Shown one piece after another: positions 3,001 through 21,401 of a DNA stretch of 24,274 nt; position 1 is the stretch's first letter; each line of letters begins with the position of its first letter. A program made the position numbers and the translations under genes. The notes beneath the pieces were generated by a model. The model saw nothing but the letters and a program-made list of their open reading frames with translations, searched no databases and had not been told where the DNA came from. The stretch comes from a virus. Location of the stretch: IMG/VR virus record IMGVR_UViG_3300025122_000150, positions 1 to 24,274 of that record, one strand, 5' to 3'.

Positions 3001-5915
3001 CTTCAGCAGATGAACAACTATCGTTGGAAACCTGGGAATATCAGTCTCCTGATACAAAATATTCTATGATATTCCCTCTTACAAAATTATATGACGTCTC
3101 GCGGAAGCCAAATCTAAGTGAGACCCGACTAACAGGAGGCCCTTATCTTGAAAATGGAGGGTTTATATTGGAACGATATATAAGAATTCAGGAAGACCCG
3201 GATGCAAACACGAATAATGAGTGGTCGCAAACCGATCGATATGCTAGTTGGTACTCTCCCGACACGGAAGCCGACAACTCGGAGAAAACAGATCATTTAA
3301 TAGATATTGTTAATCTAGATGCGTGGGAAGAATATGTTAATATGGTCACTACGGCCGCATCCGGAGGAAAATACGACAAAGGAGAAGTACTTTATACAGA
3401 TTATTTTGAAAGATGGTATTACGGATTGAGAATAGTATATGTACATCCACCACAGACATCCCCCTCGACTGGCGCGAATTGGGATCAATTTAAAAACTTA
3501 TCATCTTTATTTTCCGACGAGACCCACGCGGTGGGTCTGGGCAACATCGGCATCGACGACAACACGGCTAGACTTAGAGCATATGATAAAAAAGCATTTT
3601 ATATCAGAGAGGGCAACCAAGAAATTTTTACTACGCCGTTAGCTAATGTTGAAATCCCTATAGATGAAGTCTATTGGCACAAGGATGCTGGAGGTGTGCT
3701 TTTAACATCGGCATCCCCCGTGGGAATTGTACATCACTACCCAAAAGAGAAATTAATAATGAAACTGTCGAGAGACCCAGTATTTCATACTTTTTTTGGG
3801 GCAAACGGAATTTTTCCTGTAAACTTAATGTTAACAACGTTATCAATATATAATGTAAATTATTTTACGTCTTTATTTAAATTAGGAGGGGAGGGCGCAA
3901 CGACAAAGGATCCTTTCTATGCGATTAAAAATGCTCTTAAAACATCATTTAATGCGTTAGTAGACTCAGGAACTAATAATTGGTCGTCTGAAGACGATTC
4001 TGCTCTCGCAGCTACAGCAGAAGATGAAGAAACAATTATGGAAATGATTGCAAAAACACCATGGTTAATATTAAAAGGTGTGTTAGAATCAATTCCTGGA
4101 TTTGGATGGCTCCTTGGCAGATCTGGTTTAGGCGCCAAGGTTCGCAGCGCCCTCGGACCACCGGACAAAATTGCCATATGCGCAGCTGCACCATCACTTA
4201 TACAATCTACTTCTGATGTAACGTCAGACGGCGACCCAGACTGGTCAGAAGCAGGCGGGCCATGGAAAGTGTATTATAAGATTCCACTGTTAACATCCGC
4301 AGGCGCGCTCGTTAAAAAGTTCTTATATCAGAACCCAGAATACAATGATACCTGGGGTTTTATACCTGTGACCAATGCCGCGGATCCCGATGGTCCTAAA
4401 GTGCCGGGTACAAAATTAGGTTGGATAGACACCTATTTGCCCGATCCGGCCGGGATCGGCACATACTTTATGAGCGCGCAAAAGGTGGAAAAGTTATACA
4501 CAGATTGGCTATCGGACACGGGATTTTTGTCCATCGACGCAGGAGGGGGCGAGTGGCAACCCGGGGAAGAGCCCGGAATCGCTGCTAGCGTAATTGATAG
4601 GGACTATATAACCAGAGAGGAATATGAACATTTAGCACTTGAGGCATATCCAAACTTTACGGCTGGCCCGGACTGGACAGATAAGTATAAAGCAAATTTT
4701 GATGACCCTAAAGAGACAGATTTATTTACGGTTTATAATAAAAAAGGCGCAGGTAAATGGACTTTTTATAAATATTATTTAGATATTAAAGATATTTTAC
4801 CAGAGGGTTTGTGGAGTGATCTAGGAGAAGTGCATGCTAAAGGATTAACTGGTGCAGATGATCCTGGCTGGGCAATTGTTGCGGATACATTTCCTATGTA
4901 CTTACTAAGATCCGAATCAGTTTCTAAAGAAGAATACTTTAAAACTAAATTTTATCAGATATCGGACCCCCGCGTTCCTTTCACTAGTAATGGATGGGTT
5001 TTAACTTTTCCAAATGAGCTTGGTTCCCTTCATCTGCCGAAGGCTACGTTTGAGAAACAATACCACAAGAGAAGAATACGCATTGACAATCAAGTTGCAC
5101 ATACGCAATATCAACCAAATTGGATAATGGGGCAGAAAAGCATTGCAGATTATAACGCCAAGTCACAAGGATATGGTCAAAGCCAAGGCGAGACCCTAGT
5201 ACTTCATGAAACTAACGCTGAATGGATTAATGCGCGAGACTTATATGAGTCAGAAACTCCAGTAGCGGATTTAATGCAGGAAATAGTAAAAAGCATAAAA
5301 GCTTTTGAATTTATGAACGAAACAGATATGAAAGTAAAGATTGGACTTTGTCAATATTTATCCAGCACCTATAGGCCTGATTCCCCTTGTCTACAAACTA
5401 TTAACTTGATTCATCTAGCTGAGAACTATGCCTCAATGCCGGGAGCGGCCGCTGAAACGCCTATCAGCTATCGCTCAATTCAAATTCGTAATATAATAGA
5501 GGCTCCATATGGCGAATTATTAGCTGTAGCTGGAGTTAAAATAGCAAAACACCCTAATCCTTCGCCTGATGGTGACTGGAACAACAACGGCGACAACGAC
5601 CAAATGCAATATTACACCGAAAATTACCAGGGGAGTTATGGGTATTATGATAAAAAATATTGGGCAGATTATACAAAGATGATGCATAAATTAGGAGATT
5701 CGAATTTCACAGCACCGATGGGTTGGAACGGATTTAAGCACCTCCCAGAGCAGGAGGCCCAACCATCACCACAAAAAGAGCAGAAGAGTCAGAAACAGAT
5801 AGAGGCGGAGGAACAAGCGAAGATCGACGCGTCATACGGCCAAGGTTCACCCATCAGCGGCGACGACCCGAACATGGACGACGCGTCGCAGGGACCACCC
5901 GCCTGGCCCGACTAA
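3..5915 (+). CDS. Giant phage virion structural protein, 5' partial
   Basis: The reading frame is open to the window edge (first full codon at 3). The first ATG (42) has no Shine-Dalgarno upstream and the 13 codons before it are open, so the true start is probably outside the window. I recognise no enzymatic family. From ATG 42 (residue 1): residues 30-110 are helical with an ITPAEL...LFDGEAS pattern; 508-530 is a hydrophobic stretch; 589-640 holds three His-x-His pairs (HMH, HVH, HTH) with acidic turns; the middle is very rich in Trp, Tyr and Gly; 1339-1366 is a hydrophobic Gly-rich segment (TPWLILKGVLESIPGFGW); the last 60 residues are polar, Gln/Glu/Pro-rich and probably disordered. Size, composition and position directly before gp25 suggest a virion tail or baseplate component. 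GC-rich islands (near 2450-2780, 3510-3560, 4130-4580, 5560-5915) sit in AT-rich surroundings. It ends with TAA. The structural role is inference; the exact function is unknown. Confidence 0.85.
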   Translation, partial: KLREACQPDTSTNMNAIMGMANNNLENPNNTIDAAAEGFGVLDLEALQAFLMDVAALITPAELCSLFDGEASQNTLIAIKQLQQVKYPTLRKNFPDITVIRSFFLLLGEHIDKEACHAAVKRTGQISHPELCDDTADLPFRRDLLEGRATEEQINDQLKKLAQKQVDLLSELAIMISSDNPVSDKLTVQPTNPNADPSVQYMAKKVLNSIFRAIGTSFDKNIVSYHGFLKRKAFKLEEAIEIVKELEEQDLLGDDLSLEDQKKAAAILAGEGVSVNTATAVIARPLVTHLGDTYSEHTSGVENLLFGGDIATSNYSYDTNGTYHRYTIGANSPGEVTFLEYWSDTGKWVVKSESDNGARLFYSSTTTTSASSPSEIFSMALALVWSRDIGGNPSPIEAGKINPEFQTKILQEIAAIGMPHFKESYHESFMRLIAQYGRSLSKSALAQYSEFANLALIPAHVPDCDDDETETKKKGLLNLEYTKDQTIKIYNDLASKTEFEVKIDEFDPFELAALEGVISTMLKFYIVEFCIKNVFAFSIFRLSNTLGSNIIGDYIFEGMFRDLAKYGYHIDDFKNEIIKIITRRKATAIDKDQYHSSFEEEHMHTIEIDENGNGKTTISFGNPRESDHVHDVVDRQIVAYTDEEGDTHTHSFSNKLPYGSQYTDKNRYRYLFKEQLIDCSWIIAKYISRTGILRDNWKEKQKLRDDTLVLEQRLLNYWYDLIQFGREGTGNYDVINVSAKWRNLYPNTLRKPRSVKDVSSGSSPLSLYSAKLLLSRSYNNRYGIDYDSSTKFKPDGLKEFIRHYQNDRDILNTAGSSGNYEHAGAMRFWDETDDLDVYGKPRTFIYHIVDWFQWSSLAKVAIGDIEWGNADSLLSIQEGNPGFAGWDVMNEKGVLLSEVSKEVGQARHAAGWDVPENWQGWDGWGSTYADSITPARYGITQKDVDYLRTMPVDSLVRVVRKAISLAIYAWWGTTYAEIYNANYIDGGFNRTLADDLGLFASADEQLSLETWEYQSPDTKYSMIFPLTKLYDVSRKPNLSETRLTGGPYLENGGFILERYIRIQEDPDANTNNEWSQTDRYASWYSPDTEADNSEKTDHLIDIVNLDAWEEYVNMVTTAASGGKYDKGEVLYTDYFERWYYGLRIVYVHPPQTSPSTGANWDQFKNLSSLFSDETHAVGLGNIGIDDNTARLRAYDKKAFYIREGNQEIFTTPLANVEIPIDEVYWHKDAGGVLLTSASPVGIVHHYPKEKLIMKLSRDPVFHTFFGANGIFPVNLMLTTLSIYNVNYFTSLFKLGGEGATTKDPFYAIKNALKTSFNALVDSGTNNWSSEDDSALAATAEDEETIMEMIAKTPWLILKGVLESIPGFGWLLGRSGLGAKVRSALGPPDKIAICAAAPSLIQSTSDVTSDGDPDWSEAGGPWKVYYKIPLLTSAGALVKKFLYQNPEYNDTWGFIPVTNAADPDGPKVPGTKLGWIDTYLPDPAGIGTYFMSAQKVEKLYTDWLSDTGFLSIDAGGGEWQPGEEPGIAASVIDRDYITREEYEHLALEAYPNFTAGPDWTDKYKANFDDPKETDLFTVYNKKGAGKWTFYKYYLDIKDILPEGLWSDLGEVHAKGLTGADDPGWAIVADTFPMYLLRSESVSKEEYFKTKFYQISDPRVPFTSNGWVLTFPNELGSLHLPKATFEKQYHKRRIRIDNQVAHTQYQPNWIMGQKSIADYNAKSQGYGQSQGETLVLHETNAEWINARDLYESETPVADLMQEIVKSIKAFEFMNETDMKVKIGLCQYLSSTYRPDSPCLQTINLIHLAENYASMPGAAAETPISYRSIQIRNIIEAPYGELLAVAGVKIAKHPNPSPDGDWNNNGDNDQMQYYTENYQGSYGYYDKKYWADYTKMMHKLGDSNFTAPMGWNGFKHLPEQEAQPSPQKEQKSQKQIEAEEQAKIDASYGQGSPISGDDPNMDDASQGPPAWPD
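3520..3538 (+). repeat. Perfect 8-bp hairpin inside giant gene
   Basis: AGACCCAC (3520-3527) and GTGGGTCT (3531-3538) are perfect reverse complements around a 3-nt GCG loop. Five of the eight pairs are G-C, so the structure should be stable in RNA. It lies in a short GC-rich island of the coding region. No function is known. Confidence 0.5.
4441..4459 (+). repeat. Perfect 7-bp GC-rich hairpin inside giant gene
   Basis: CCGATCC (4441-4447) pairs with GGATCGG (4453-4459) around a 5-nt loop, in a GC-rich island of the first giant gene. The pairing is seen directly; any role is unknown. Confidence 0.45.
5879..5888 (+). repeat. 10-nt palindrome near gene 3' end
   Basis: CGACGCGTCG is a perfect palindrome close to the stop of the first giant gene. 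Nine of its bases, CGACGCGTC, also occur at 5825-5833, giving a short direct repeat in the GC-rich, disordered C-terminal coding tail. Confidence 0.35.
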
Positions 5916-6432: not shown

Positions 6433-8265
6433 ATGACTCACGCGAGACAAGATCGAAAAAACATTACTATTAAATATACTAGTAGAGAATATGACACGAT
6501 AAGAGCAGACTTAATATCTCATGCTAAACGTTATTATCCAAACACTTTTAAAGATTTTAATGAAGCTTCGTTTGGTTCATTAATGTTAGACACTGTTGCT
6601 TATGTAGGAGATATTTTATCATTTTATTTAGACTTTCAAGCGAATGAAGCGTTTCTTGGGACAGCCTTAGAATATAATAATGTTTTAAAAATTGGCCGTC
6701 AGATGGGATACAAATATAATCCTTCGTCTTCTTCACAAGGGAGGTTGACGTTTTATATAACAGTGCCAACAAAAACCGCTGGTTCGGGCCCCGATCCTGA
6801 GTATATGCCAGTTCTATTGGCAGGGTCCTCATTTGTTGCGGATAACGGAGGGAATTTTACTTTAGTTGAAGATGTCAATTTTGCAGAATCTACAAATGAG
6901 ATCGTTGTTGCATTAAGCAATTCAGAAACTGGAACACCTCTTACATACGCAATAAAAGCCTCTGGGGTGGTGGTATCTGGGTATTTTAATGAAACAACAG
7001 CTCAGATTGGGACACACCAGAAATTTGTAGTTGCCTCTTTAGGCGATACTAATGTCGCAGAAATTATAAGCGTTGTAGACGGATCTGGAAAAGAATATTA
7101 TGAAGTAGAACATTTAGCACAAAATATTGTTTATCATCAAATTAAAAATTCAAATTTTGGTAACGATGCGGTACCGTTTTTGTTTAAGCCAATGATAGTG
7201 CCAAGAAGATTTGTTTTAGAGCGCACAGATGAAGATACATATTTACAGTTTGGAGGCGGATCAGATGCAAAATTAGAAACAATTGCAGACAATCAATTTT
7301 TTGCATCTAAGTTAGATCCAAGTAAAGTTGTTTTGCAAATGCATGGGAAAAATTATGTTTCTGATACAACTTTTGATCCATCTATGTTGTTAGAATCAGA
7401 TAAGTTTGGGATTGCGCCAGCGGATACAACTTTATATATTGTGTATAGAGCCGATACATTTGAAGCATCAAATGTGAGTGTTAATTCAATTACAAATGCG
7501 GGGGAGATCGATTTTGAATTTCCAAGCTTAACATCCAATTATAGCCCTACAAAACTATCAGAAGTCCAAGGCACTTTAGAAATGACCAATGATGAAGCTA
7601 TAATTGGAAGTGTACCTATTAATGATATTGATGAAGTTAAAGAAAGAATTTATGGCACGTTTGCGACACAAGACAGAGCAGTTACAAAACAAGACTATAT
7701 TAGTTTAATGTATAGAATGCCATCAAAATTTGGCGCGGTTAAACGAGCCGCCGTCGCGCAAGACCATGATTCAAATAAAAGAAATTTAAATTTGTATATA
7801 GTGTCAGAGAGTCCCTCTGGAGCTTTACAAAAAACAAATACAACAATAAAACAAAATTTAAAAACATGGATAGAACAATATAAAATGATAAACGACACTG
7901 TAGACATTTTAGATGCTAACATCGTTAACTTTGGAATTGAATTTGTTGCAGTGGCTGATTTAAATACAAATCGCTATGCATTACTTTCTAATGCTGTCGA
8001 AATATTAGGAGAATTCTTTACTGTACACTCGGATATAGGACAAGCGTTATATGTCACTGACATATATAAAGTATTGAATAGTGTGCCGGGAATAATTGAC
8101 GCAGTAGACGTTAAGATTGTTAGAAAATCAGGTGGGTTTTATTCGAATGATACATTTAATATGGATTCTCACTTATCGCCTGATGGAAGATATATAACTG
8201 TTCCAATCGATACTATTTTTGAACTCAAATATCCAAAAGTCGATATAAAAGGTGTAATTAAATAA
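6433..8265 (+). CDS. 6: Baseplate wedge protein, gp6/baseplate J-like
   Basis: This 610-residue protein matches the baseplate J / T4 gp6 family in layout. Residues 10-95 carry the N-terminal helical block with SREYDTIRADL, FNEASFGSLMLDTVAYVGD and NEAFLGTAL...GYKYNP. A beta-rich middle follows, and the C-terminal part has the family landmark AVTKQDYISLMYRMP (near 415-430), which marks the conserved end domain. In known contractile tails this protein forms the wedge ring that joins gp25/W and gp7/I. The start has an AGGGAAG ribosome-binding site about 6 nt upstream. The stop TAA overlaps the next ATG (TAATG), suggesting translational coupling. Base composition is low GC (30-35% in lines counted by hand) and uniform. 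The family call is confident; fine details of subunit contacts are inferred. Confidence 0.93.
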   Translation: MTHARQDRKNITIKYTSREYDTIRADLISHAKRYYPNTFKDFNEASFGSLMLDTVAYVGDILSFYLDFQANEAFLGTALEYNNVLKIGRQMGYKYNPSSSSQGRLTFYITVPTKTAGSGPDPEYMPVLLAGSSFVADNGGNFTLVEDVNFAESTNEIVVALSNSETGTPLTYAIKASGVVVSGYFNETTAQIGTHQKFVVASLGDTNVAEIISVVDGSGKEYYEVEHLAQNIVYHQIKNSNFGNDAVPFLFKPMIVPRRFVLERTDEDTYLQFGGGSDAKLETIADNQFFASKLDPSKVVLQMHGKNYVSDTTFDPSMLLESDKFGIAPADTTLYIVYRADTFEASNVSVNSITNAGEIDFEFPSLTSNYSPTKLSEVQGTLEMTNDEAIIGSVPINDIDEVKERIYGTFATQDRAVTKQDYISLMYRMPSKFGAVKRAAVAQDHDSNKRNLNLYIVSESPSGALQKTNTTIKQNLKTWIEQYKMINDTVDILDANIVNFGIEFVAVADLNTNRYALLSNAVEILGEFFTVHSDIGQALYVTDIYKVLNSVPGIIDAVDVKIVRKSGGFYSNDTFNMDSHLSPDGRYITVPIDTIFELKYPKVDIKGVIK

Positions 8266-10280
8266 TGTCTATTAAAAAATATTATGCCACAAAAGACAAC
8301 ACAATAACAAATGCATTTAAAGCCGACCTTTCCAACCGGGGAACGGGCTCTAATATGGGCGCATCAGATATTTTGGAAGTTTTTTCAATTTATGGGCAAG
8401 CTTCTTCAAGCGCCTCCGGAAGTACGGCAGAACTCTCTAGGGTTTTAATGCAGTTCCCAGCCACTGGGGATTCTGGAATTCAACAAGATAGAAGTGATGG
8501 CAAGATTCCCGCTAGCGGCAGTGTTAACTTTTATTTAAGAGTTTTTAACGCAAGACATTCACAGACATTACCAAGAGATTTTACCATGACATTGTTGCCA
8601 ATATCTAGTTCATGGGAAGAAGGTTTTGGCTTAGATATGGAGAGTTATCAAGATGTAACATTAGACAAATCAGGATCAAACTGGGTAAATAACCAGACTC
8701 GTGTTGCTGCGACTGCAACAATAACCATTGTAGATCTAGGCAGCAACACTACAGACATCAATCAATTGCATGGTACTACCGGATTCACAATTACAGATTC
8801 TGCTGGAAATGCCATAGAATATTATTTTGATAAAGCTGGGGCTGCAGGTTCTACAGGAACTTCTACAGCCGATGGTATCGTGATACAGGTTAATGGAATG
8901 AGTGCAGCAACTGATGTTGCTGCTCAAGTAGAAGCTGCATTAAATAGCGCAAATGGTCATGGTAACAGCGGTAAAGAGACTATCACTATTAGTCGTACCG
9001 ATAATGTTATAAATTTAACACATGACGCAAAAGGTCCAGATGGCAATAATATTATTGATCCGGGCTCGACCCCTACGCCTACTTATATCCAATATACAGG
9101 TTTTTCCGGTGGCGCCGGTATTTGGACTAAAGCTGGCGGAGACTTTCACACAAGTTCGATTTATGAAGCCAGTTTTGTTGGAGGAACAGAAGACATTGAG
9201 GTGGATATAACGGCACTAGTAGAAGAATGGATAACTGGTTCAAGCAATGATGTTAAAGGTGCACCGGTAGGATATTTAGGAAAAGATAATTATGGAGTTG
9301 GCATAACCTTGCATACAGGAACTTTTGAATCATATTATTCTGGTTCAGACGCGTCAGATAGTACGCATCATGTAATCCCGGGCACATCCGTATACCATAA
9401 TTTGTCAGGCCCGTATAAATCATATTATACAAAAAGATTTTTTTCTAGAACATCTGAACATTATTACAAAAGACCGTGCATTGAAGCACGTTGGGATTCA
9501 TCTAGAAAAGACGATAGAGGAAATCTTTACGCTAGTAGTTCATTAGCAGCTACCCAAGAAAATTTATTTACACTATATTTATATAATTCTGTCCGCGGCC
9601 AGCTTCGAAACATCCCAGACATTGGTGATGGTGATCATATTTATGCAAAATTTTATACATCTGCTTCTGGTGGAGATATTATAACAGGGATTGTTGGTAG
9701 TGGCACTTTAATCTCATATGAAAATGCTGTTACTGGAGGGTGGAAAGAAACTGGGATTTATACAGCTTCTTTTGCTTTTAATAATACAGCTAGTGTTGTA
9801 TACGATGTTTGGTTTACAGGTAGCGAGGCAGAACCAAGCACATATATAGAATATCATACAGGGTCTTTTAGCCCAAAAAGTTTACAATCACAGGATTCAT
9901 ACATTAACCCAAAATATGCTACAACAATAAATAATCTTAAATCAGTTTATACGACAAATGAGACCGCTCGATTTAGACTCTATACTCGAAAAAAAGATTG
10001 GAGTCCGACTATTTATTCTAAGGCAACAACCACCCCAGCTTCAGATGTAATTGAAAAAGCATATTATAAAATTTATAGAGCTATAGACGAGCTAGAGATC
10101 ATAGATTATGGAACGGGCAGTGCACAACATACACAACTTTCTTATGATATCTCTGGTAGTTATTTTGATTTAGATATGTCGTTATTTGAGAAAGAATACC
10201 AATATGGTATTAAATTTTTATACTATATAAATGGTTCTTATTATGAACAACCAGAGGCGTTTAAATTTCGTGTTGAATAA
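8265..10280 (+). CDS. DNRLRE-like beta-rich tail/baseplate protein with inserted module
   Basis: This is a 671-residue, Ser/Thr/Gly/Tyr-rich protein. Residues 1-143 resemble a DNRLRE-type beta-sandwich: a tY...T.ITNAF start, a NMGASDILEVF strand, LSRVLMQFP, then VNFYLRVFNA and SSSWEEGFG. The fold seems to resume at IWTKAGGDF (about 286) and continue through VDITALVEEWI to a closing KRFFSR...RPCIEARWD strand near 390-415. Residues 145-285 look like a separate inserted module. Residues 430-670 form further beta-rich, probably Ig-like units ending in FKFRVE. The start is fixed by TAATG overlap with the J-like gene and an AAAAGGTG ribosome-binding site about 10 nt upstream. The position between J-like and I-like genes suggests a baseplate-attached or fibre-like part, perhaps touching glycans. 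The DNRLRE call is by eye and moderate. Confidence 0.75.
   Translation: MSIKKYYATKDNTITNAFKADLSNRGTGSNMGASDILEVFSIYGQASSSASGSTAELSRVLMQFPATGDSGIQQDRSDGKIPASGSVNFYLRVFNARHSQTLPRDFTMTLLPISSSWEEGFGLDMESYQDVTLDKSGSNWVNNQTRVAATATITIVDLGSNTTDINQLHGTTGFTITDSAGNAIEYYFDKAGAAGSTGTSTADGIVIQVNGMSAATDVAAQVEAALNSANGHGNSGKETITISRTDNVINLTHDAKGPDGNNIIDPGSTPTPTYIQYTGFSGGAGIWTKAGGDFHTSSIYEASFVGGTEDIEVDITALVEEWITGSSNDVKGAPVGYLGKDNYGVGITLHTGTFESYYSGSDASDSTHHVIPGTSVYHNLSGPYKSYYTKRFFSRTSEHYYKRPCIEARWDSSRKDDRGNLYASSSLAATQENLFTLYLYNSVRGQLRNIPDIGDGDHIYAKFYTSASGGDIITGIVGSGTLISYENAVTGGWKETGIYTASFAFNNTASVVYDVWFTGSEAEPSTYIEYHTGSFSPKSLQSQDSYINPKYATTINNLKSVYTTNETARFRLYTRKKDWSPTIYSKATTTPASDVIEKAYYKIYRAIDELEIIDYGTGSAQHTQLSYDISGSYFDLDMSLFEKEYQYGIKFLYYINGSYYEQPEAFKFRVE
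8697..9119 (+). other. Inserted Ser/Gly-rich module inside the DNRLRE-like domain
   Basis: Residues 145-285 of the 671-residue protein begin with ATATITIVDLG and GFTITDSAGNAIEYYFD, pass through IVIQVNGMSAATDVAAQVEA and TITISRTDNVINLTHDAKGPDGNN, and end at FSGGAG. The segment separates SNWVNNQTR from IWTKAGGDF, which read as one continuous domain when joined. I recall similar TITD..G...Y.FD / AAQV..A..S.NG / LT....G..GN patterns in other phage structural proteins, but cannot confirm this here. Boundaries are approximate. Confidence 0.5.
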
Positions 10281-10298: not shown

Positions 10299-13200
10299 AT
10301 GAGTATCAAAGACATTTTTGAACAAGACAATCCCAAAGTTTTAACATCAACAAATCTAGAAGAACTTGGTGCTGAAATAGAATCGGAAGATTATGTTGAT
10401 TCTTATGTATTAAAACAAAATAAATTTACGCCGCCCGTAGACTTCAGCCAACCTAAGAACTTTGCAAAATTTGGTTTAGCTGCAAGATATTATACTGACA
10501 CAATTGAGAGAATTTATCAAGATTTTCCGTATGATGGTTCTTTATATGAAAAAACGGCATGGCATAACAGTTCATCGTATTTAGATAATTATATTTTTGA
10601 AAATGAATATCCACGTACAAATGGACACGTAACTTTATCATATTTAGATTGGGGAACTCAAGTAACGGCATCTGATGGGTATGGTGCGACAGCAACATCA
10701 TCGTATGATTATATAAGATTTACAGGCGGGCCACACTCAGGCAATATATATGATTTAACAAAAGACCGCGGCCTAAATTTAAGATTCGGTGGTGCAGAAG
10801 GTGCCACTGTTGAATTTTGGTTAAAAAAATCTGAATTTATAAGCTCGCTTACAGAAAAAGAAGTAATACTTGATGTTTGGAGCACCGGAACGATTTCTGG
10901 TACGGTAGCAGGCGCAAATGAAGGGTATGCGCGCTTACGCATTGAGATGTCTGCAACAGCAGGCGCTTCCGATCCATCGCCATTTTACATAACATATATG
11001 TCAGGGGCTGATGGGTTTGCAAATGAAGCAATAGGATCATCTAATATCACTACAGCCTCTGTTGCGGATGATATTTGGCATCATTATGCATTTACATTTC
11101 AAAACGATGGAGATAATGTAGCCGCAGAATTATATTTTGATGGTACACATGATGCAAGTGTTTTAACAGGAACTTCAATTGGCCATGTTAGTAGCTCATT
11201 GGCTGCAAATATTGGAGCTTTAGTTACGAGACCTTCGGGAACATTTTCTACAACAGTGCCCTATTCCGCAGAAAATGGATGGGGAAAATTATCTGCGTCT
11301 ATGGATGAATTTAGATTTTGGAAAGCTAGAAGAAACCCACAACAAATAGGTCGATATCGTATTAGTCAGGTTGGTGGTGGGTCGAACACAGATGAAGCAA
11401 ATACAAAATTAGGAGTTTATTATAAATTTAATGAAGGGATTTCCCAGACAAGTTCTGTTGATTCGATAGTATTAGATTATTCTGGACGAATGAGCAATGG
11501 ATCATGGACAGGTTATCAATCCGGCGCACGAAGTTTAAATTCTGCAATTGTAGAAAGTTCAGCTTCTACGTTTGAATATAAAGATCCGATTATATATTCT
11601 TTTCATTCCGATGTGCTAAACTTAAAAACAAGACTCAATGCTTCCGGAAGTGAATGGGATCGACAGAACACATCTGCTCTCTATTATTCTTATCCTTCGT
11701 GGATAATCGAAGAAGACGAGGAAAGAGCAGGAACTTTATTAAAGCTTACTCAAATTATTGCATCTTATTTTGATACATTATTTCTACAAATAGAGGCTTT
11801 TCCACGAATAAAAGACATATATTACGCAGATGGAACTACCGGCAGTTTTAAACCATTACCTTTTGCAGAAGATATATTACAGAATACTGGATTTTTAACA
11901 CCAGAAATATTCGCGGACGCCACTGCTTTAGAATTTTTTCTTAATAGGAATGAAGAGAAAAAGTTTACAAAAAGATTGCATGAAGTTAAATCTTACATAT
12001 ACCAAAATATATATAATAATTTAACTTACATTTATAAATCAAAAGGCACAGAAAGAGGACTTAGGAACGTATTACGATGCTTTGGTGTCGATGACGAATT
12101 GGTTAGAATTAATACATATGCAGAAAATTCTGTATATCAGTTTCGTGATAATTTACGGGCGACTGCAGTTAGAAGAAAATATATTGATTTTTATCACCAC
12201 TCTCAACGTAACTCGAATGTATATCAATACGCTGATTCTTCAAACTCGAATTCTGTATCATATATCAACGGAAGAGATGAATCTGCTTCAGGTTCGGCTG
12301 TTACAGTAGAAGCAGAAGTATTATTTCCAAAAGCTCTTCCATTTTGGCATGACTTGTATGTGCCTTATCATTCAACTGCTTCTTGCTTATTTGGCGCACA
12401 CACAGCGATTAAAGATGGTGTGGCAGGAGATGTATCTTGGGATCCAACCGACTCTACAAATTTTAAAGTTTTGGCAGTTAGAAATAGACAAGGAGCCCCC
12501 TCGACTTATTTTAGATTAACTGGTTCATCAGGTGGATTTGTTCCTACGCTTACTAGTAGTTTATTTTTGCATACGTATAATAATGAAAAGTGGAATTTTG
12601 CTGTACGAGTTAAGCCTTCAAAATATCCATTAGTTAGTATCGTTGAGGGCACAACAGGTTCAACAACGAGTAGAGATCCTTATGTGGTCGAATTTTATGG
12701 TGTTAACACTTTAGGTAATCAGATCAAAAATGAATTTATCGTTTCTGGCACAATGACATATGCTCAAGGCGCAGCTTTTATAACAAGTTCTACACGATTG
12801 TATGTAGGGGCACACAGAACAAATTTCACAGGGTCGCTTATCGATTCTACTGATGTTAAAATAGGTTCTTTAAGATATTGGACTGACTATGTTCCCGATA
12901 ATGCGATAAGAGAACATTCTAAAGATGTAACAAATTTTGGTACGGAACACCCCCAAAGAAGCATAGGACTATTTCATGAGCGGTTGTCCGGAACGTACAT
13001 ACCACAAATGGAAACATTAGCACTAAACTGGGAATTTTCGAATATATCTGGATCAGATGACAATGGCCAATTTACAGTCGATGACATTTCTTCAGGTTCA
13101 ACAGAACTAACAAGTAGACATTCGTGGGTAGGTTCGATTGTTAAAAATCAACACACCGGCCGCGGCCACTTTTTTGACGCACCGCCGAATCATACTTCAT

Positions 13201-16200
13201 CATACAGTGTAGAATATATACACACTAATAAAAAGCAATTACCGGAAACATTAGGTACAGATGACGCCGTACAAATTTTAACAGATGATGACGTATATTT
13301 GGCAAGAGATTTTAAACCAATTAAATTTATATATGGAATTGAAAAAAGCATGTACCAAGTTATTTCAGAAGAAATACTTAATTTCTTTTCCAGTGTAAAA
13401 GATTTTAATAATTTGATTGGCGAACCAGTTAATAGATACCGACAAGAATATAAAGATTTAAACAAGTTAAGACAATACTTCTTTGAAAGAGTACAAAACA
13501 CACCAGATATAGAAAAGTTTGTTGAATATTTTAAATGGATAGATTCTTCTGTATGGAAAATGTTAGAACAGCTTATTCCAGCTAGTTCTAATTTTATTGA
13601 AGGATTGAGAAATGTTGTTGAGAGTCACGTTTTAGAAAGAAATAAATATTGGACAAAGATGCCAACATTGGACTTAAAACGGTCTGACCCTGAAGGTCAA
13701 TTGTTAGGAATTAATGAGCTTTTATATGATTGGGAATTTGGTCATTCTCCAAATCAACTTTTTAATTTAAAAAGCATTGCATTTAATGGTGCCAATAACC
13801 AGTCACAACTTACAGTTTCTGATCATACTAGTCTTAGTTTTGGTGCTGATGGAACAGCAGCAAATGAGCCTTCTTTCACATTTTCTTCTTGGATAAATAT
13901 GACAGACGCGTCTAGATTTTATATTCTAGGCAAAAGAAATACTTCAACATCGAAGTCTGAATATGTTTGGTATGTAGATGCTTCGGACAAACTAATCCTT
14001 CTTATCAACGACACCAACACCACTAATTTTATAGCAAATGCAGCCGATGCCGCAGTAACGAGTTATGAAGGCCAATGGATTCACGTATGTACAACATACG
14101 ATGGGTCCGGTGGCGGCGCCGGGATAAAAATGTACATTAACGGCTCAGCGGTTGCGATGGCGTCACCCAGCACCGGAGGTTCGTACACCGCCATGGATAA
14201 CACCAATGCAGATTTTTTCATTGGACGTTCGGCTGCAAACACCGCTAATCTTGTCGCAGAAGGATTTATTGATGAGACTGCCGTTTTTAATAAAGAATTA
14301 ACCGTGGCCGAAATTTCGAAACTCCATAGATCTGGACTTACTTGGGACTTAAATAATTTCTTTCATGCTAAAGATCATCTAGTTTCTTGGTGGAGGATGG
14401 GTGACAAAGCAACGGGAACATCCCCAAATTTCACTATTCCAGACCAGATTGGCGATAATGATGCTGTGATGACTGTTTTCCAAGATACTGAAACTAGCAA
14501 AGTTGTTACAAACGCTCCACCTTCCACACATACGAATGAAAATGAGAATTGTCTTTGGTGGAAGGAGAGAGCAGAAAGAACAAATCCAGTTATTTCTTCT
14601 GGTGACGTCAACATCGATAGTGAAAAAGATGGCATTCTTAAAATTTTAACAACTAAAACTAGCGCTTCTGGCCCATCTTTAAGTGGTTCGTCGGGAATTT
14701 ATGAAGGGTCATCGTATGTTTTACGTAATCTTTCGTTGCCTTACAAATTTTCAGTTGACGAGTCTATACAAATACATGGCGGATCAAACTTTCATCCAAA
14801 TAAGCAAGCTGGCATTTTTAAAGCAGAAGCAGATAAAGATGATAGTACTAGTTTTCTTGTTGTTAGCGCGTCTAGTGTAGATTCTTTTGAAAATTGCACC
14901 GACAACTCAGGACTAACCCAGAAACGTAAACATTCATTTGGAGCATATTTGCGGTCTGAGGTACCAAATTTTGAGGATAAAGATTCTTATTTAAAAACAA
15001 AAGGCGCTTTATTTTCTCCATTTAGTTTGCATAGCGCTTCTAATGATGGAGGATATTCTGATACATTCACAAGTAGTTTTAAAGCTGGAATAGATATTAC
15101 AAATCTTCATGAAGATAGTTACGGGCCTTGGTACGAGACACCATTACAAGGTCACTTTACAGAGAAATATGTTGGAGGGCTTCAGTATAGACATGTTGCA
15201 GTGAATACGGGCTCAGATGATAAAACTAATCGACCTGAAGGTTGGTGGTTAACAATTCACGGAAACACTCTTTTCTTTTATGGGCCCGGAGCAGATACTC
15301 AAGACAGAACTAGACCAAAAGCAAATCGATTCAGAGAACCAATGGCTAAACGCCCGGTCAATATTAAAAATATTCTACAAAAGACGGGTTCAACTATAAT
15401 TGGAAACTATGAACACGATTATCAAATAATTCAAACTTCTGGAAGAAGAACGAATAATAGATATTTTGTTAAGAACGAAGGTATCACTATTGCAAATCAA
15501 GAAACTTCAGCAGTATCAGGGGTTATTGATTTTACTTTACCAGATAGAAATATATCAGGTTCAAATGATTTTGTTTTTGTTGAAAGATTTTCCGCTCCCG
15601 GCGGCCCAGAAGTTATGTCTAGAGGATTTTTAGATGTTGAGGCAGAAGAATATTCAATTTATAATGCATTGCCATGGCGTAATCTTACAGTCCGACAACC
15701 ATTAAATTCATTATTAACAAAACACTGCGGCCAGTTTGGATATGATATTGACACTGGATATGGATATACTGCTTCATTCCATAAAGTTCATAGAAACTCT
15801 TTGAAACGAATTGAAGGCGATCTTACGACTGGATACGTGACTGGCACAACATATGATAATTGGTACGTACGACATGCAATTCCAAGATCTGAAACACATT
15901 ACGCTTGGATAACAGCCTCAGTAGATTATTCCGCTTCTGCTAGATTTTCTGGATATACAGGAAAACGTTGGTATGAATCTAGCTCTGTAGGTTGGACCGG
16001 CGCGATTGGGTTTGTAAGTGCGAGTGATTTTGTTGGTTGGGACGCCCCTGGCTACACCCTCGGGACTGACAAAAATATTTTACTTGGAGCTGGAATTCCG
16101 GACCAGGATTTGGTTTATGGCGACTTTGCAGGACTTAATACTATAATTTATGAACCAGTATCGTCTTCAGAGAATACGCTTGGATATCCCTTGGGAACAT

Positions 16201-19200
16201 CTTTGGGGTCTGCCGACCTCACCGAACTTCAATATAGAAATGTAACTTTTTTTACCAACACGGCAATTAGCCTTGTCGCACCAGGCGCGGCCAACCTTTT
16301 GATGCTTAAACGAAACGGACCTTACGGATGGCCTTCTTGGAAACAAATTAGAGGATATGAACATCCAATTGTTAAATCTCATAAGAAACAAAATATTATT
16401 TCTCATATGAAAGCACCAAAGCTTAAAGTGATAAAGCCATTTACAACAGACCCTTTTGAATATCCACACCCTCATCCTCATAAAGAGAGAATTAACCTGA
16501 ATTATCAAGAAATGGGAGTGGTAGACAAAACTTTTAAAAAGTATTGGACCATCTTTGTCACAAATAAACAAGATCGCTTCAAAAATTATAATGAACCAGT
16601 AGTAGTCTCAAGGTACAAACCAATTTTACATCATTTCGAGTATGAAGAAAATAAGACATTTCAAACCACTACTCTAAAATATACACACGCAAATAATTTG
16701 TCAGTGTTCACGCATGTTGAATTAAGAATGGACCTTGATTATTATCGATATGATAAGCCAAAAGATATTTTTACACGTGACCAAAAAATACAAATATATG
16801 ATAGTCTTTTAAGTATGTACATTGATGATTCTCCGCTTGAGCCATTTAAACCACGTGCCATTTATTGTAGTGAGGATATATTTCCAAGAGAAATTAATAC
16901 ATTCGCCTCTTCTATAAGAAGTCGACAATTATATGCACCAGGTTTTTGGAAAGAGCGTGGCACTGACCGGCTTGAGCCACCGGAAGGTTCAATGGTTGGT
17001 GTTTATAATTCTCAAGGAGAGGGCGGTGATGAAGCTCATGTCCAAAGTATTTGGCCATTAGATCCGAGAGATAAATATGATGATCCTGCATTGCCTTCGA
17101 CCAGTAGCGGCGACGGCGCAGGTGAATTACAAAACAATTATTGTATTTTTTATAATGACGCTCATGGTCATCCCATTAAAGCTGGTGCATTGTATGCAAG
17201 ACCAATTCCATTTTCTGGGACTACGGAAGAGTTATTTTCTGGAGACACTCTCTTTGAAGTTGCTGATCAATCGGGCAGAGCCCCGTTCCCAGAACATACA
17301 TATGACAAATGGATTGATGAAATTAAAAGAGTAGGTAAAGACTATTCAGTAATCCCGGAATTTAGGATTAGTGAACATTTAGACCATTATATGATGGACG
17401 CTTCCGGAGGTCTTGAAAATTATCTTAAGAAAAATATTAGTTGGCTTAGTTTAACAGGTACGGCCGTTTCTGCGAGCAATGAAGCCGATTTTTATAAAGT
17501 TTACGGTATGAGCGATTTTTTGAAATATTTTTCAATTATTAGAGATGATCATGAAGACATATTTGGAAAAAGTGCACATGGAGTTCCTCAAATTGATGAA
17601 CAGGGGGCGCCGACAGGAAAAGTAATAACTGTTGCTTCAATCGGGTCAGAAGCTGAAATTAGACTTAAATGCAAAGCCTTAATGAAGTTTTTACCATACG
17701 ATGGATTTTACCCTGCTCTCAGGACAGTCCAATTAGCACAATTAATGTCGCAGTCATATGCTAGCACAAACGCAGCTAACAATGATAAGTGGGTGATTCG
17801 TGATAAAAATAATAATCCTGCCAGTTGGGCCGCGGCAATGAAACCATTTTATGCTCCCGGGATAATGTTTAATTCTATTAAATCTGGAGTCGCAGTGGAT
17901 TACCCAGTTTACATCTCGCCATCGCACGCCATCACTGGTACTAATTCAGGTGAATACTGGGATGTTCAACATATGAGAATTTCAGAGTCAACTGACACCA
18001 ACTTTTTTAAGCGGTTTCCTTTCGAGAGATTATTGGCGCCACACCAAGGGAATCCTTCACTAATATATGATCTTGAGCCTCATGCTTCTGCTAGTCTAGA
18101 TGCGACTAGTTCTTTACGTCATCATTTTGATGATCGTTATACTATAGGAATAAACAACTTTTTAGCAGAAGTACCATCATTTTTCTTAAGAGGTGGAGAG
18201 ATGACCCAAATCGAATCAGGCTGGGAAAGTGAATTTGAAACAGTTAATTTAGATTCGGATGGTCCACAAGAATATACTATGAGAATTGTTTTGTCTCATG
18301 GCACATCTGCCTCTTATGAAGATGCATCCAAGTCTTATGCTGCAGCGGGTGAATTTAGCCCAATCGGACAGACTTCTAAAGCTGGGAATCATATCTCATA
18401 TGTAGATAATCCTAGAACAATCACAATGTATGATCGTCAGTGGAGCGCACCTTTGACGAATGGTATAAATTACCCCAGAGGTCATGGTTCTTCTTTTGGA
18501 CCGCCATTTGTGTCGAAGGGTATTAGGAAAGGTGTTCTCTCAGGCGTCGCCACACCAGTAGACCGTCCATCTGGCACTTATGAACCATATACTCCTCCTT
18601 ATTTTGATGGGTATTCGCATGTAGAACTAACGTTTAGGCCCGATTCGTTACCAGACCACATATTAAGCCAGTCAAAGGGCGCCGCCGGACAATTCTCTTT
18701 AAGTCAGATATTAAACAACTTAACTGCTACATTTGCCAGACAGTGCACACAGGCTTTTCATGTCCCAACTACAGACTACCCCGCAAGCATGTATTGGGCT
18801 TATACAGGATCTCACAATCCCGCAGTACGGCATTCCATGCAAATAACGGCGTCAATTAATATATCATTAAAACGCCAAAAGAAATTTAAGGTTACATACG
18901 CAACCTCCACTGAAATAGACTCTGAAGTTGAGCCCGGATACCCACCAGACAAATTTGAAGAGCACACAACAGATGGAGAACAATATAAATGGGTAATACA
19001 GCCAAAGTGGGAAACGCCGATATTAGATTTTGCGAATGTGGATGCGACGGTACCAGAAGGTGCTCCTTCTTCAGAAAATTCATTTTCCGGAAGCGACGGT
19101 ATAGCAAAAGGAATGTGGCATCAATATGGTTCAATCCCTGAACCAGGCACTGGGCTTACTTTATCTATTCAAGACGATTATATTGGGAAGCGCATCCTCA

Positions 19201-20270
19201 CTGACGCAGCTTTAACTGCATCTTTAGCAAAATTGGTTGGATTTAAAAAAGACTTTCAACGTGCACCATCACGTAAACTTGGACAGCTAGCCAATGAAAA
19301 AGTAATAAAAGAAGCTGTAGTCGCTATTCCATTTTGGTGGCCTTCCAAGAGCGAAGCTTTTAATCTGAACTCACACGAACCAAACTTTTTTGAACTAGAT
19401 CCAAACGCCGTAAAAAAATATCTTGGGTTAGTAGATGGTGATCCTTTCAAAGTTAAGATTGAAGGGAAACAATCGAAATTTAAAAATGCCATTACTCCTG
19501 CGGGAGCCCGTCAAATCGATTTGATGAAACGATATGTATTTCCGCCTCATTTTGATTTTATTCAACATATTGGTGAGTGGGGTAATAGACCGATGCCTTC
19601 TATGGCCATATTTGAGTTTGGACATACGTTAAAACAGAATGATTTGTTAAATATCTGGCAGAACGTATCGCCAGATATTGGAATTCAATGGAAAGAGGCA
19701 GAATCGACATTAGCGTTCCCACTATGGACTTCTTTTTTCGATACGACTAATAATGCGATGCATACTTTTGCTCAACACTTTGATTTAGATCAGACTAGCG
19801 ATGTAAAGTTACCATATAATATACAATGGATAGTATTTAAAGTTAAACAACGGGCAAAAACAAATTATTATGCAGAAAGAGCCGATGGCGACCCCGCTAG
19901 AAAATTAAATATCGATGTAGACCTACCTTTTAGAAAAGCAAAAGAAGCAGCAGGTGAAACTTATAAGCCAGCATTCCAGGAAATACCATATAGTTATAAT
20001 TGGCCATATGATTATTTTTCACTTGTTGAGCTAGTCAGGCTTAATGCAACTGTTAAAACTGAAAACCAAAAAAGAAGAGAAGACGAAACGAATACCATGT
20101 ATCTTATGGCAAAAGAACAGGCCGCAGCAGAATTAAAGAAACAAGAAAAACAAAAAGGTGCAAATAAGAAAAAGCAATCAGATGTTTGGAAAGCTATATT
20201 GCAAGAGATGGTTAAATCAGGAAAAATTGATACTGGATTTAGTTTATTCCCATATAAAGATGAAAAATGA
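10299..20270 (+). CDS. Giant 3,323-residue tail protein: I-like module plus three LamG domains
   Basis: One uninterrupted frame of about 365 kDa. Domains read by eye: residues 136-410 LamG/concanavalin-like (VEFWLKK, DDIWHHYAFTF, MDEFRFWKARRNPQQI); 467-600 helical tail module ending in YKSKGTERGLRNVLRCFGVD (581-600), the hallmark of tail protein I-like families; 668-885 a second LamG-like domain (EKWNFAVRVKP, GSLRYWTDYV); 1016-1118 helical; 1155-1395 a third, clearest LamG (FTFSSWINM, GQWIHVCTTYDG, IDETAVFNKELTVAEI). Residues 1400-3240 are unrecognised, beta-rich, with an HPHPH cluster at 2057-2061. The last 80 residues are Lys/Glu/Gln-rich and probably coiled coil. Following the gp25- and J-like genes, it is likely the wedge component equivalent to P2 I / T4 gp7 fused to surface-binding domains. 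The start has a weak GGTG ribosome-binding site with a 5-nt spacer; the stop is TGA. The role is inference; LamG calls are good. Confidence 0.85.
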   Translation: MSIKDIFEQDNPKVLTSTNLEELGAEIESEDYVDSYVLKQNKFTPPVDFSQPKNFAKFGLAARYYTDTIERIYQDFPYDGSLYEKTAWHNSSSYLDNYIFENEYPRTNGHVTLSYLDWGTQVTASDGYGATATSSYDYIRFTGGPHSGNIYDLTKDRGLNLRFGGAEGATVEFWLKKSEFISSLTEKEVILDVWSTGTISGTVAGANEGYARLRIEMSATAGASDPSPFYITYMSGADGFANEAIGSSNITTASVADDIWHHYAFTFQNDGDNVAAELYFDGTHDASVLTGTSIGHVSSSLAANIGALVTRPSGTFSTTVPYSAENGWGKLSASMDEFRFWKARRNPQQIGRYRISQVGGGSNTDEANTKLGVYYKFNEGISQTSSVDSIVLDYSGRMSNGSWTGYQSGARSLNSAIVESSASTFEYKDPIIYSFHSDVLNLKTRLNASGSEWDRQNTSALYYSYPSWIIEEDEERAGTLLKLTQIIASYFDTLFLQIEAFPRIKDIYYADGTTGSFKPLPFAEDILQNTGFLTPEIFADATALEFFLNRNEEKKFTKRLHEVKSYIYQNIYNNLTYIYKSKGTERGLRNVLRCFGVDDELVRINTYAENSVYQFRDNLRATAVRRKYIDFYHHSQRNSNVYQYADSSNSNSVSYINGRDESASGSAVTVEAEVLFPKALPFWHDLYVPYHSTASCLFGAHTAIKDGVAGDVSWDPTDSTNFKVLAVRNRQGAPSTYFRLTGSSGGFVPTLTSSLFLHTYNNEKWNFAVRVKPSKYPLVSIVEGTTGSTTSRDPYVVEFYGVNTLGNQIKNEFIVSGTMTYAQGAAFITSSTRLYVGAHRTNFTGSLIDSTDVKIGSLRYWTDYVPDNAIREHSKDVTNFGTEHPQRSIGLFHERLSGTYIPQMETLALNWEFSNISGSDDNGQFTVDDISSGSTELTSRHSWVGSIVKNQHTGRGHFFDAPPNHTSSYSVEYIHTNKKQLPETLGTDDAVQILTDDDVYLARDFKPIKFIYGIEKSMYQVISEEILNFFSSVKDFNNLIGEPVNRYRQEYKDLNKLRQYFFERVQNTPDIEKFVEYFKWIDSSVWKMLEQLIPASSNFIEGLRNVVESHVLERNKYWTKMPTLDLKRSDPEGQLLGINELLYDWEFGHSPNQLFNLKSIAFNGANNQSQLTVSDHTSLSFGADGTAANEPSFTFSSWINMTDASRFYILGKRNTSTSKSEYVWYVDASDKLILLINDTNTTNFIANAADAAVTSYEGQWIHVCTTYDGSGGGAGIKMYINGSAVAMASPSTGGSYTAMDNTNADFFIGRSAANTANLVAEGFIDETAVFNKELTVAEISKLHRSGLTWDLNNFFHAKDHLVSWWRMGDKATGTSPNFTIPDQIGDNDAVMTVFQDTETSKVVTNAPPSTHTNENENCLWWKERAERTNPVISSGDVNIDSEKDGILKILTTKTSASGPSLSGSSGIYEGSSYVLRNLSLPYKFSVDESIQIHGGSNFHPNKQAGIFKAEADKDDSTSFLVVSASSVDSFENCTDNSGLTQKRKHSFGAYLRSEVPNFEDKDSYLKTKGALFSPFSLHSASNDGGYSDTFTSSFKAGIDITNLHEDSYGPWYETPLQGHFTEKYVGGLQYRHVAVNTGSDDKTNRPEGWWLTIHGNTLFFYGPGADTQDRTRPKANRFREPMAKRPVNIKNILQKTGSTIIGNYEHDYQIIQTSGRRTNNRYFVKNEGITIANQETSAVSGVIDFTLPDRNISGSNDFVFVERFSAPGGPEVMSRGFLDVEAEEYSIYNALPWRNLTVRQPLNSLLTKHCGQFGYDIDTGYGYTASFHKVHRNSLKRIEGDLTTGYVTGTTYDNWYVRHAIPRSETHYAWITASVDYSASARFSGYTGKRWYESSSVGWTGAIGFVSASDFVGWDAPGYTLGTDKNILLGAGIPDQDLVYGDFAGLNTIIYEPVSSSENTLGYPLGTSLGSADLTELQYRNVTFFTNTAISLVAPGAANLLMLKRNGPYGWPSWKQIRGYEHPIVKSHKKQNIISHMKAPKLKVIKPFTTDPFEYPHPHPHKERINLNYQEMGVVDKTFKKYWTIFVTNKQDRFKNYNEPVVVSRYKPILHHFEYEENKTFQTTTLKYTHANNLSVFTHVELRMDLDYYRYDKPKDIFTRDQKIQIYDSLLSMYIDDSPLEPFKPRAIYCSEDIFPREINTFASSIRSRQLYAPGFWKERGTDRLEPPEGSMVGVYNSQGEGGDEAHVQSIWPLDPRDKYDDPALPSTSSGDGAGELQNNYCIFYNDAHGHPIKAGALYARPIPFSGTTEELFSGDTLFEVADQSGRAPFPEHTYDKWIDEIKRVGKDYSVIPEFRISEHLDHYMMDASGGLENYLKKNISWLSLTGTAVSASNEADFYKVYGMSDFLKYFSIIRDDHEDIFGKSAHGVPQIDEQGAPTGKVITVASIGSEAEIRLKCKALMKFLPYDGFYPALRTVQLAQLMSQSYASTNAANNDKWVIRDKNNNPASWAAAMKPFYAPGIMFNSIKSGVAVDYPVYISPSHAITGTNSGEYWDVQHMRISESTDTNFFKRFPFERLLAPHQGNPSLIYDLEPHASASLDATSSLRHHFDDRYTIGINNFLAEVPSFFLRGGEMTQIESGWESEFETVNLDSDGPQEYTMRIVLSHGTSASYEDASKSYAAAGEFSPIGQTSKAGNHISYVDNPRTITMYDRQWSAPLTNGINYPRGHGSSFGPPFVSKGIRKGVLSGVATPVDRPSGTYEPYTPPYFDGYSHVELTFRPDSLPDHILSQSKGAAGQFSLSQILNNLTATFARQCTQAFHVPTTDYPASMYWAYTGSHNPAVRHSMQITASINISLKRQKKFKVTYATSTEIDSEVEPGYPPDKFEEHTTDGEQYKWVIQPKWETPILDFANVDATVPEGAPSSENSFSGSDGIAKGMWHQYGSIPEPGTGLTLSIQDDYIGKRILTDAALTASLAKLVGFKKDFQRAPSRKLGQLANEKVIKEAVVAIPFWWPSKSEAFNLNSHEPNFFELDPNAVKKYLGLVDGDPFKVKIEGKQSKFKNAITPAGARQIDLMKRYVFPPHFDFIQHIGEWGNRPMPSMAIFEFGHTLKQNDLLNIWQNVSPDIGIQWKEAESTLAFPLWTSFFDTTNNAMHTFAQHFDLDQTSDVKLPYNIQWIVFKVKQRAKTNYYAERADGDPARKLNIDVDLPFRKAKEAAGETYKPAFQEIPYSYNWPYDYFSLVELVRLNATVKTENQKRREDETNTMYLMAKEQAAAELKKQEKQKGANKKKQSDVWKAILQEMVKSGKIDTGFSLFPYKDEK

Positions 20271-20351: not shown

Positions 20352-21401
20352 ATGAGTTTTTTTAATCAAAAAGAAGAAGTAATAGATTTGCAGCTTACGC
20401 AATATGGTAAACATCTATTGTCGAAAGGATTGTTTAAACCGACTTTTTATGCTTTTTATGATAATGATATTTTATATGATTCAGAATATATTGGTTTAAT
20501 TGAGGATCAGAATACAATTAAAACAAGAATAAAAGACCAAACGCCGCGGAATAAAACACAATATTTATATCATGGTCTAGAAAATGATTTTTTAAAGATA
20601 TCAGAAAAGGATAAAGAAAACGTGCTAAAGAGTAACAAACTTCAAGCGACACCGGAAAAAAGTTTTGCTTTAGCTATGCCGCTTGGCAATTCAGCTTTTG
20701 ATAGTGACTATCTCCCGGCTTGGAATATTAATTATTTAAATGGAGAACTTTCTAGTTCGACTATAGTAACTCCATATTCAGCGTCACAACCCACAATTAA
20801 TATACCACAATTAGAGAGCACGATTACTTATAAAATAATTCGCGACCCAAAACCTATAGTACATCCGCTTAATCAACCCGATCCGGACGGAGTAGGATTA
20901 GATCATGAAGCTTTTAATCACTTTTATTTTTCGGAGTCACCTGAGTTTTTAAATTCAGAAAATCCAGATGAAGTATTATTTGGAGATGGTACTAGATTTA
21001 TTATAGAAGGTGAATATTTATTATTAGAATTGATTGAAAGAAACACAACATTTGAAACTAAAAATTTTGATATTGAAATATACGAAGTTGAAAACGTAAC
21101 TGGTTCAAATGGAAAGATTATAGAACGATATCTTCCTTTAATAATGCCAATACCCCCGGATGAGCTTAGCGGTAACGAAGATGAATTGTTGGAAAAATTA
21201 CCTGATATAGGACCAGACTATGTAGAATATTATTTAGATTTCCTTGTTGATGATGAAATACCACCGGGAATAATATGTAAGAGTAAAGAATTAGAAAAGA
21301 CTCAAAATATATTTTCTGATAGTCTTGTTGACTGCCCAGAAAAAACTGGAATTAGTGTAAAACTTTATTCCACAGACGCAGAAGGAGATGATGTCTGCTA
21401 A
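20352..21401 (+). CDS. Unrecognised phage structural-module protein
   Basis: This 349-residue acidic protein belongs to no family I can name. Its N-terminus has a compact motif, EEVIDLQLTQYGKHLLSKG followed by PTFYAFYDNDILYDSEY, which looks like a conserved folded domain. A loop-rich middle follows (to about 165), then an acidic half with FLNSENPDEVLFGDGTRF and repeated Asp/Glu/Tyr patches. Three Cys lie near the C-terminus, one being the last residue. There is no signal peptide or membrane segment. It sits between two giant structural genes in the same operon, so a virion tail or assembly role is likely. The start is fixed by an in-frame TAA just before ATG; the ribosome-binding site is distant and bridged by a palindrome. 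The stop overlaps the next ATG (TAATG). A small fibre, connector or chaperone are all possible. Confidence 0.85.
   Translation: MSFFNQKEEVIDLQLTQYGKHLLSKGLFKPTFYAFYDNDILYDSEYIGLIEDQNTIKTRIKDQTPRNKTQYLYHGLENDFLKISEKDKENVLKSNKLQATPEKSFALAMPLGNSAFDSDYLPAWNINYLNGELSSSTIVTPYSASQPTINIPQLESTITYKIIRDPKPIVHPLNQPDPDGVGLDHEAFNHFYFSESPEFLNSENPDEVLFGDGTRFIIEGEYLLLELIERNTTFETKNFDIEIYEVENVTGSNGKIIERYLPLIMPIPPDELSGNEDELLEKLPDIGPDYVEYYLDFLVDDEIPPGIICKSKELEKTQNIFSDSLVDCPEKTGISVKLYSTDAEGDDVC

Follow-up and report, generated by a model that had tools for sequence, protein, structure and literature searches.

Gene organization of the tail locus

The window, the whole 24,274-base stretch of IMG/VR virus record IMGVR_UViG_3300025122_000150, encodes in order a 1,957-aa ORF, a gp25-like protein, a gp6/J-like protein, a 671-aa protein, a giant 3,323-aa protein, a 349-aa protein and a 958-aa ORF that is open at the end. 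This gene order is common to relatives. The giant gene, with its modules M1 to M4, is one frame, as the sequence-only reading had proposed, and its coordinates are exact (Table 1). Relatives of M1 are found at at least 519 IMG/VR loci and those of M4 are encoded in at least 547 IMG/VR stretches; complete relatives are mostly single chains of 2,797-3,850 aa.

Upstream, the gp6/J-like protein is 29% identical to the wedge protein of Flavobacterium phage immuto at 99% coverage. The giant had been placed after gp25- and J-like genes; the gp25-gp6 tail cluster is indeed present, but the 671-aa gene intervenes between gp6/J and the giant. This intervening protein has no Pfam or PHROG match, and its profile has no match in a sequence search of the PDB. 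The profile does match genes in the same position in Microcystis phage Mel-JY01 (386 aa, 9e-29), immuto (gp111, 3e-22) and LR756508 (429 aa, 2e-21). At about residues 141-270 it carries an insert rich in Ala, Ser, Thr and Asn, which relatives of about 480 aa lack.

Downstream, the 349-aa gene has homologues in 133 loci, and its profile yields a single insignificant match in a PDB sequence search. Its N-terminal motif and several cysteines are kept in relatives, and Mel-JY01 may hold a weak homologue (1.5e-4). The 1,957-aa ORF ahead of the gp25 gene (42-5915) falls into neither a Pfam nor a PHROG family (best E >0.1) and shows only weak similarity to its positional counterparts in relatives.

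Table 1 Features of the window. LamG boundaries are from an iterated LamG HMM (i-E given); residue numbers are those of the giant protein.
Feature	Coordinates	Strand	Basis
gp25/W-like baseplate wedge and sheath initiator, 126 aa	6025..6405	+	Pfam GPW_gp25 3.5e-13; PHROG baseplate wedge subunit 6.7e-13
gp6/J-like baseplate wedge, 610 aa	6433..8265	+	phrog_219 baseplate wedge subunit 2.2e-22
671-aa gene between gp6 and giant	8265..10280	+	conserved core
Giant gene, 3,323 aa, modules M1-M4	10299..20270	+	ATG start, no internal stop
M1, residues 1 to about 1570, I/gp7-like core and LamGs	10299..15007	+	split genes in relatives; AlphaFold2
LamG 1, fixed, residues 157-357	10767..11369	+	LamG HMM 2e-50; beta-rich in model at about 110-404
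Core block 1, helices 437-594	11607..12080	+	AlphaFold2; hhalign to cyanophage gp7 and P2 gpI
KGT segment, residues 582-600	12042..12098	+	hhalign
LamG 2, fixed, between helical blocks, residues 711-875	12429..12923	+	LamG HMM 5e-11; AlphaFold2 strands
Core block 2, helices 1018-1090, LIPASSNF motif at about 1094	13350..13568	+	AlphaFold2; conserved in family
LamG 3, mobile, residues 1174-1346, site 1151|1405	13818..14336	+	LamG HMM 8e-31
M2, residues about 1570-1845	15008..15831	+	borders from split genes
M3, residues about 1845/1940-2232	15832..16992	+	borders from split genes
M4, residues about 2235-3323	17001..20267	+	stand-alone in split genes L080, L083, L086, L088
349-aa gene, conserved partner downstream of giant	20352..21401	+	motif MxFFNxKEEV...LSKG...DDDVLYD (alignment)

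M1 contains a core related to gp7 and gpI

In relatives, M1 also stands alone as a gene of 1,270-1,276 aa, with split genes in L006, L009, L021, L047, L093 and L102. The AlphaFold2 model of residues 1-1151, built from 72 aligned sequences (pLDDT 81.8, pTM 0.64), contains helices at 437-594 and 1018-1090, separated by a beta-rich stretch at 619-861; the first helices are flanked by beta-rich regions on both sides. The KGT segment, KGTERGLRNVLRCFGVD, begins at residue 582, where a KGTERGLRNVL..FGVD hallmark had been noticed near 581-600. The KGT core is nearly invariant in the family, and most insertions lie outside it.

A core profile (residues 440-625), made from 72 family members together with immuto, Mel-JY01 and LR756508, aligns at KGT with cyanophage/DLP6 gp7 with a score of 42.7, against a maximum of 20.8 for shuffled columns (0/100). 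Seven P2 gpI-type proteins give a score of 29.3, weaker than for cyanophage gp7 and above a null maximum of 21.7 (0/40). Between cyanophage gp7 and T4 gp7 the alignment covers 107 columns (Prob 95.6). The proposed I-like tail module is thus partly borne out, by the profile of the KGT core and by the tail cluster, but not by direct comparison with T4 gp7, where hhalign places the core/M1 profile at chance. On these profile alignments, the KGT core is distantly homologous to, and probably the equivalent of, the corresponding part of gp7/gpI.

The significant homology spans 31-39 columns of the core. Core block 2 alone falls below significance against gpI or T4, and its P-x-S motif (IPASSNF) resembles KPASRHL of P2. 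Curated gp7/gpI models of Pfam and PHROG do not match the giant, which keeps the protein out of those curated families, and a PDB sequence search with the M1 profile returns no matches. Structure prediction, a check named beforehand, yielded the two helical blocks, but the best 50 PDB matches listed by Foldseek for the M1 model are dominated by LamG, comprising LamG-like and unrelated proteins without gp7 or gpI; the matches in a viral library are mostly unnamed proteins of uncultured viruses. The missing curated hit, the chance-level T4 comparison, the Foldseek result, the few columns and the second block count against assigning the giant to the wedge.

Two fixed and several mobile LamG domains

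All three LamG domains claimed from the letters alone are found by the iterated HMM. Pfam Laminin_G_3 (PF13385) reaches 86 bits (cut-off 27.6), with the best stretch at 1189-1340, and a Pfam search of the N-terminal 1,160 residues places Laminin_G_3 at 234-350. Foldseek matches the M1 model to pentraxin/LG structures at E about 1e-5, showing the jelly-roll fold.

LamG 1 is present in all relatives scored, and LamG 1 and LamG 2 align in nearly all of them. Since the beta-rich stretch holding LamG 2 is located between the helices in the model, the view that a LamG splits two helical blocks is right. The immuto protein gp109 has about 77 residues between the core blocks where the giant carries LamG 2, so the inter-block region is variable in the wider family. 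LamG 3 is missing in most relatives. In a first set of 27 relatives it appeared unique to the window, and the larger set dispelled this, with at least six relatives (L034, L035, L036, L046, L060 and L064) carrying a LamG at the same site. Extra LamGs occupy about a dozen insertion sites, which in residues of the giant are 936, 1151, 1655, 1723-1738, 1844, 1903-1950, 1974, 2233, 2290, 2388 and 2544-2571. This is the pattern expected of two structural LamGs accompanied by mobile adhesion or decoration LamGs. The LamG fold suggests that these domains may bind carbohydrate.

Comparison with known wedge proteins

The giant is about 19 times the size of P2 gpI (176 aa) and 3.2 times that of T4 gp7 (1,032 aa); the earlier estimate of about ten times gpI was too low. 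Both known proteins resemble it in their position after gp25/W and gp6/J and in a KGT segment in register, and both are devoid of LamG. The direct similarity to T4 gp7 is insignificant, and that to P2 gpI is weak but above the null.

Cyanophage T4-like gp7 proteins (PHROG 2885/4406/701) share the gp25-gp6-giant order, the KGT core, the great size and built-in accessory domains. This arrangement is seen in the Prochlorococcus phages P-SSM2 (PSSM2_111, 5,195 aa) and P-HM2 (PHM2_086, record 46318-59682, about 4,450 aa) and in Synechococcus phage S-CAM9 (3,884 aa). In P-SSM2 and S-CAM9 the accessory domain identified by Pfam is YHYH, in contrast to LamG in the giant, and a sub-threshold match to PF23786 ‘Baseplate_wedge’ lies near KGT. 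Homology to the giant covers about 31 core columns, with the core at about residue 210 rather than 582; the giant has no PHROG match to phrog_2885, and the core alone was aligned by hhalign. The cyanophage proteins show no match to M2-M4, and the cyanophages looked at have no extra gene between gp6 and gp7, unlike the window. Since cyanophage gp7 proteins of 3,884-5,195 aa occupy the same position, giant size alone is not new, and describing the giant as an unusual baseplate design was an overstatement; what is new is the modular anatomy, with modules that are often separate genes in relatives.

The gene order of the window, extra gene included, recurs around immuto gp109 (1,265 aa) and the proteins of Mel-JY01 (1,336 aa) and the huge phage LR756508 (1,404 aa), which have a homologous core (full-protein E 1e-16 to 2e-21). 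They have no detectable LamG, and no M2-M4 was found in the regions examined. A study of pelagimyophages reported that they lack T4 gp7 and that ‘VrlC’ seems to take its place (PMC7029224). The VrlC-type protein, which occurs in pelagimyophages and cyanomyophages and was put forward there as a T4 gp7 substitute, is counted among the systems closest to the giant.

Virion proteomics of relatives, also suggested as a check, exists for a cyanophage: purified virions of S-CREM2 yielded 91 unique peptides of its 1,937-aa protein (ORF122), which is encoded in the same position (PMC10665884). The presence of such a protein in virions is thereby established for cyanophages only, not for the lineage of the window.

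These comparisons bear on a different reading, in which the giant is mainly a receptor-binding, tail-fibre-type adhesin whose N-terminus merely docks, with KGT as the docking motif and another gene, such as the 671-aa gene, encoding the wedge subunit. The richness in LamG, the large part of the chain without recognizable relatives, the conserved extra gene directly after gp6 and the shortness of the proven homology all fit such an adhesin. Nevertheless, the KGT core is nearly invariant with insertions mostly outside it, the profile of the 671-aa gene matches no gp7, and a cyanophage gene with the KGT core is both annotated and detected as a wedge protein. We therefore regard a mainly adhesive giant as unlikely.

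M2-M4 occur as fused or separate modules

The claim that residues 1400-3240 are unrecognised holds: they have no Pfam or PHROG match and none in the 50,697 phage records searched. M2-M4, the C-terminal part of the giant, match no cultured phage. The AlphaFold2 model of M4 (residues 2235-3310) has a pTM of 0.79 and a pLDDT of 69, and Foldseek finds no match for it in the PDB (best E 1.8). With a pLDDT of only 69, the lack of a PDB match hints at an unseen fold for M4 but does not prove one.

In 28 loci the chain is broken into separate genes, and relatives divide these modules between two genes; the single-chain state is thus optional. Breaks are confined to three borders, at about residues 1485-1572, 1840-1978 and 2227-2241 of the giant. 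At the first of these, the match of the upstream gene stops earlier in four breaks. The frame is uninterrupted at each border in 134-162 loci. In a tree of M1 with 59 scorable rows, 12 of them split, at least eight changes between the fused and split states are needed.

Because the relatives come from metagenomic contigs and some of the split genes overlap by 4-47 bases, the splits might be frameshift or assembly errors, the giant always being one chain. The probability of this is close to negligible: none of the 28 loci is broken away from the three borders, and in the inspected splits the downstream gene starts with ATG (one with GTG) just after the upstream stop or near it, often behind a purine-rich stretch and in several with a GGAG-like sequence. 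In addition, the halves are separated in two split loci by other genes that take up 2-6 kb. Alternatively, the ORF might give several products by post-translational processing, a fused frame without a special structural role, as relatives that encode the modules separately with the same borders could indicate. This is very unlikely, as the frame remains uninterrupted across the borders throughout a deep tree and neither a protease nor an intein was found.

In L021, genes resembling gp15 (weak), sheath (6e-10), gp19-like tube (weak) and T4_baseplate (9e-14) lie between the M1 gene and the M2-M4 gene and thereby tie both halves to the tail operon. The stretch L021:12430-18520 reads as a rearranged tail operon with tail sheath stabiliser-like, sheath, tube-like and T4_baseplate genes. 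In L102, M1 and M2 are separated by about 2.1 kb with several small ORFs (L102:11773-13892).

A putative wedge scaffold with peripheral modules

The giant is likely the wedge scaffold of a marine myovirus that branches deep among the T4-like phages, combining a gp7-type core in M1 with peripheral modules that bear lectin-like domains. In favour of this are the gp25 and gp6 neighbours, the homology of the KGT core, and the tail genes between the modules in L021. The cyanophage giant gp7 in the same place, found in S-CREM2 virions, points in the same direction, as do the splits at three borders with their start codons, the repeated changes in the tree and the positions of the LamGs. The extra gene between gp6 and the giant, and proteomics from cyanophages only, count against it.

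The M1 core, as a diverged P2 gpI/T4 gp7-type protein, would form the baseplate wedge together with a dimer of the gp6/J-like protein and the gp25-like sheath initiator. Its placement in the baseplate of the virion is proposed by analogy with S-CREM2 ORF122. Also by analogy, the core would provide the scaffold strand of each wedge, and the insertions in and after it (LamGs and M2-M4) would face outward, towards the place at which simpler phages attach their receptor-binding parts. The two permanent LamG jelly rolls lie around and within the core and would project from it. Extra LamGs, inserted where the chain tolerates them, may serve in adhesion or decoration.

M2, M3 and M4 would belong to the outer baseplate, covalently linked here and formed by separate polypeptides in other phages. 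More specifically, we tentatively propose that they could constitute an outer baseplate layer of about 1,750 residues, conserved in hundreds of uncultured marine T4-like phages, with M4 as an unseen fold, linked covalently or as separate subunits and acting as a rack for lectin-like domains; this proposal is possible rather than probable.

Giant gp7 wedge proteins would thereby be known not only from cyanophages but also from a deep, abundant group of uncultured marine T4-like phages. Fused and split modules, together with gain and loss of LamG at defined sites, represent natural experiments that hint at contacts between parts of the chain within the baseplate and at candidate host-recognition domains in phages without a cultured host.

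Placement of the virus

A T4-type gp23 major capsid gene is present in four of eight relative contigs tested (3e-63), and eight relative contigs contain no match to Pfam PF23786 or gp8 elsewhere; both observations were counted for the wedge-scaffold reading. Among cultured phages, the one relative gp23 searched is nearest to those of Microcystis phage Mel-JY01 (37%) and of Rhodothermus phage RM378 (34%). The latter serves as reference for the ‘Far-T4’ phages (PMC4360716), so the virus is placed in or near that group. The window virus is best explained as a deep-branching marine T4-like myovirus of an uncultured, abundant group.

A scan of cellular genomes gave six contigs with family members, mostly small MAG contigs, and no clear host. 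One member, L111 (CP070664.1, about 588-592 kb), lies inside the assembled chromosome of a candidate division WOR-3 MAG, with fragmented ORFs downstream; it may represent a provirus, a mis-join or long-read errors.
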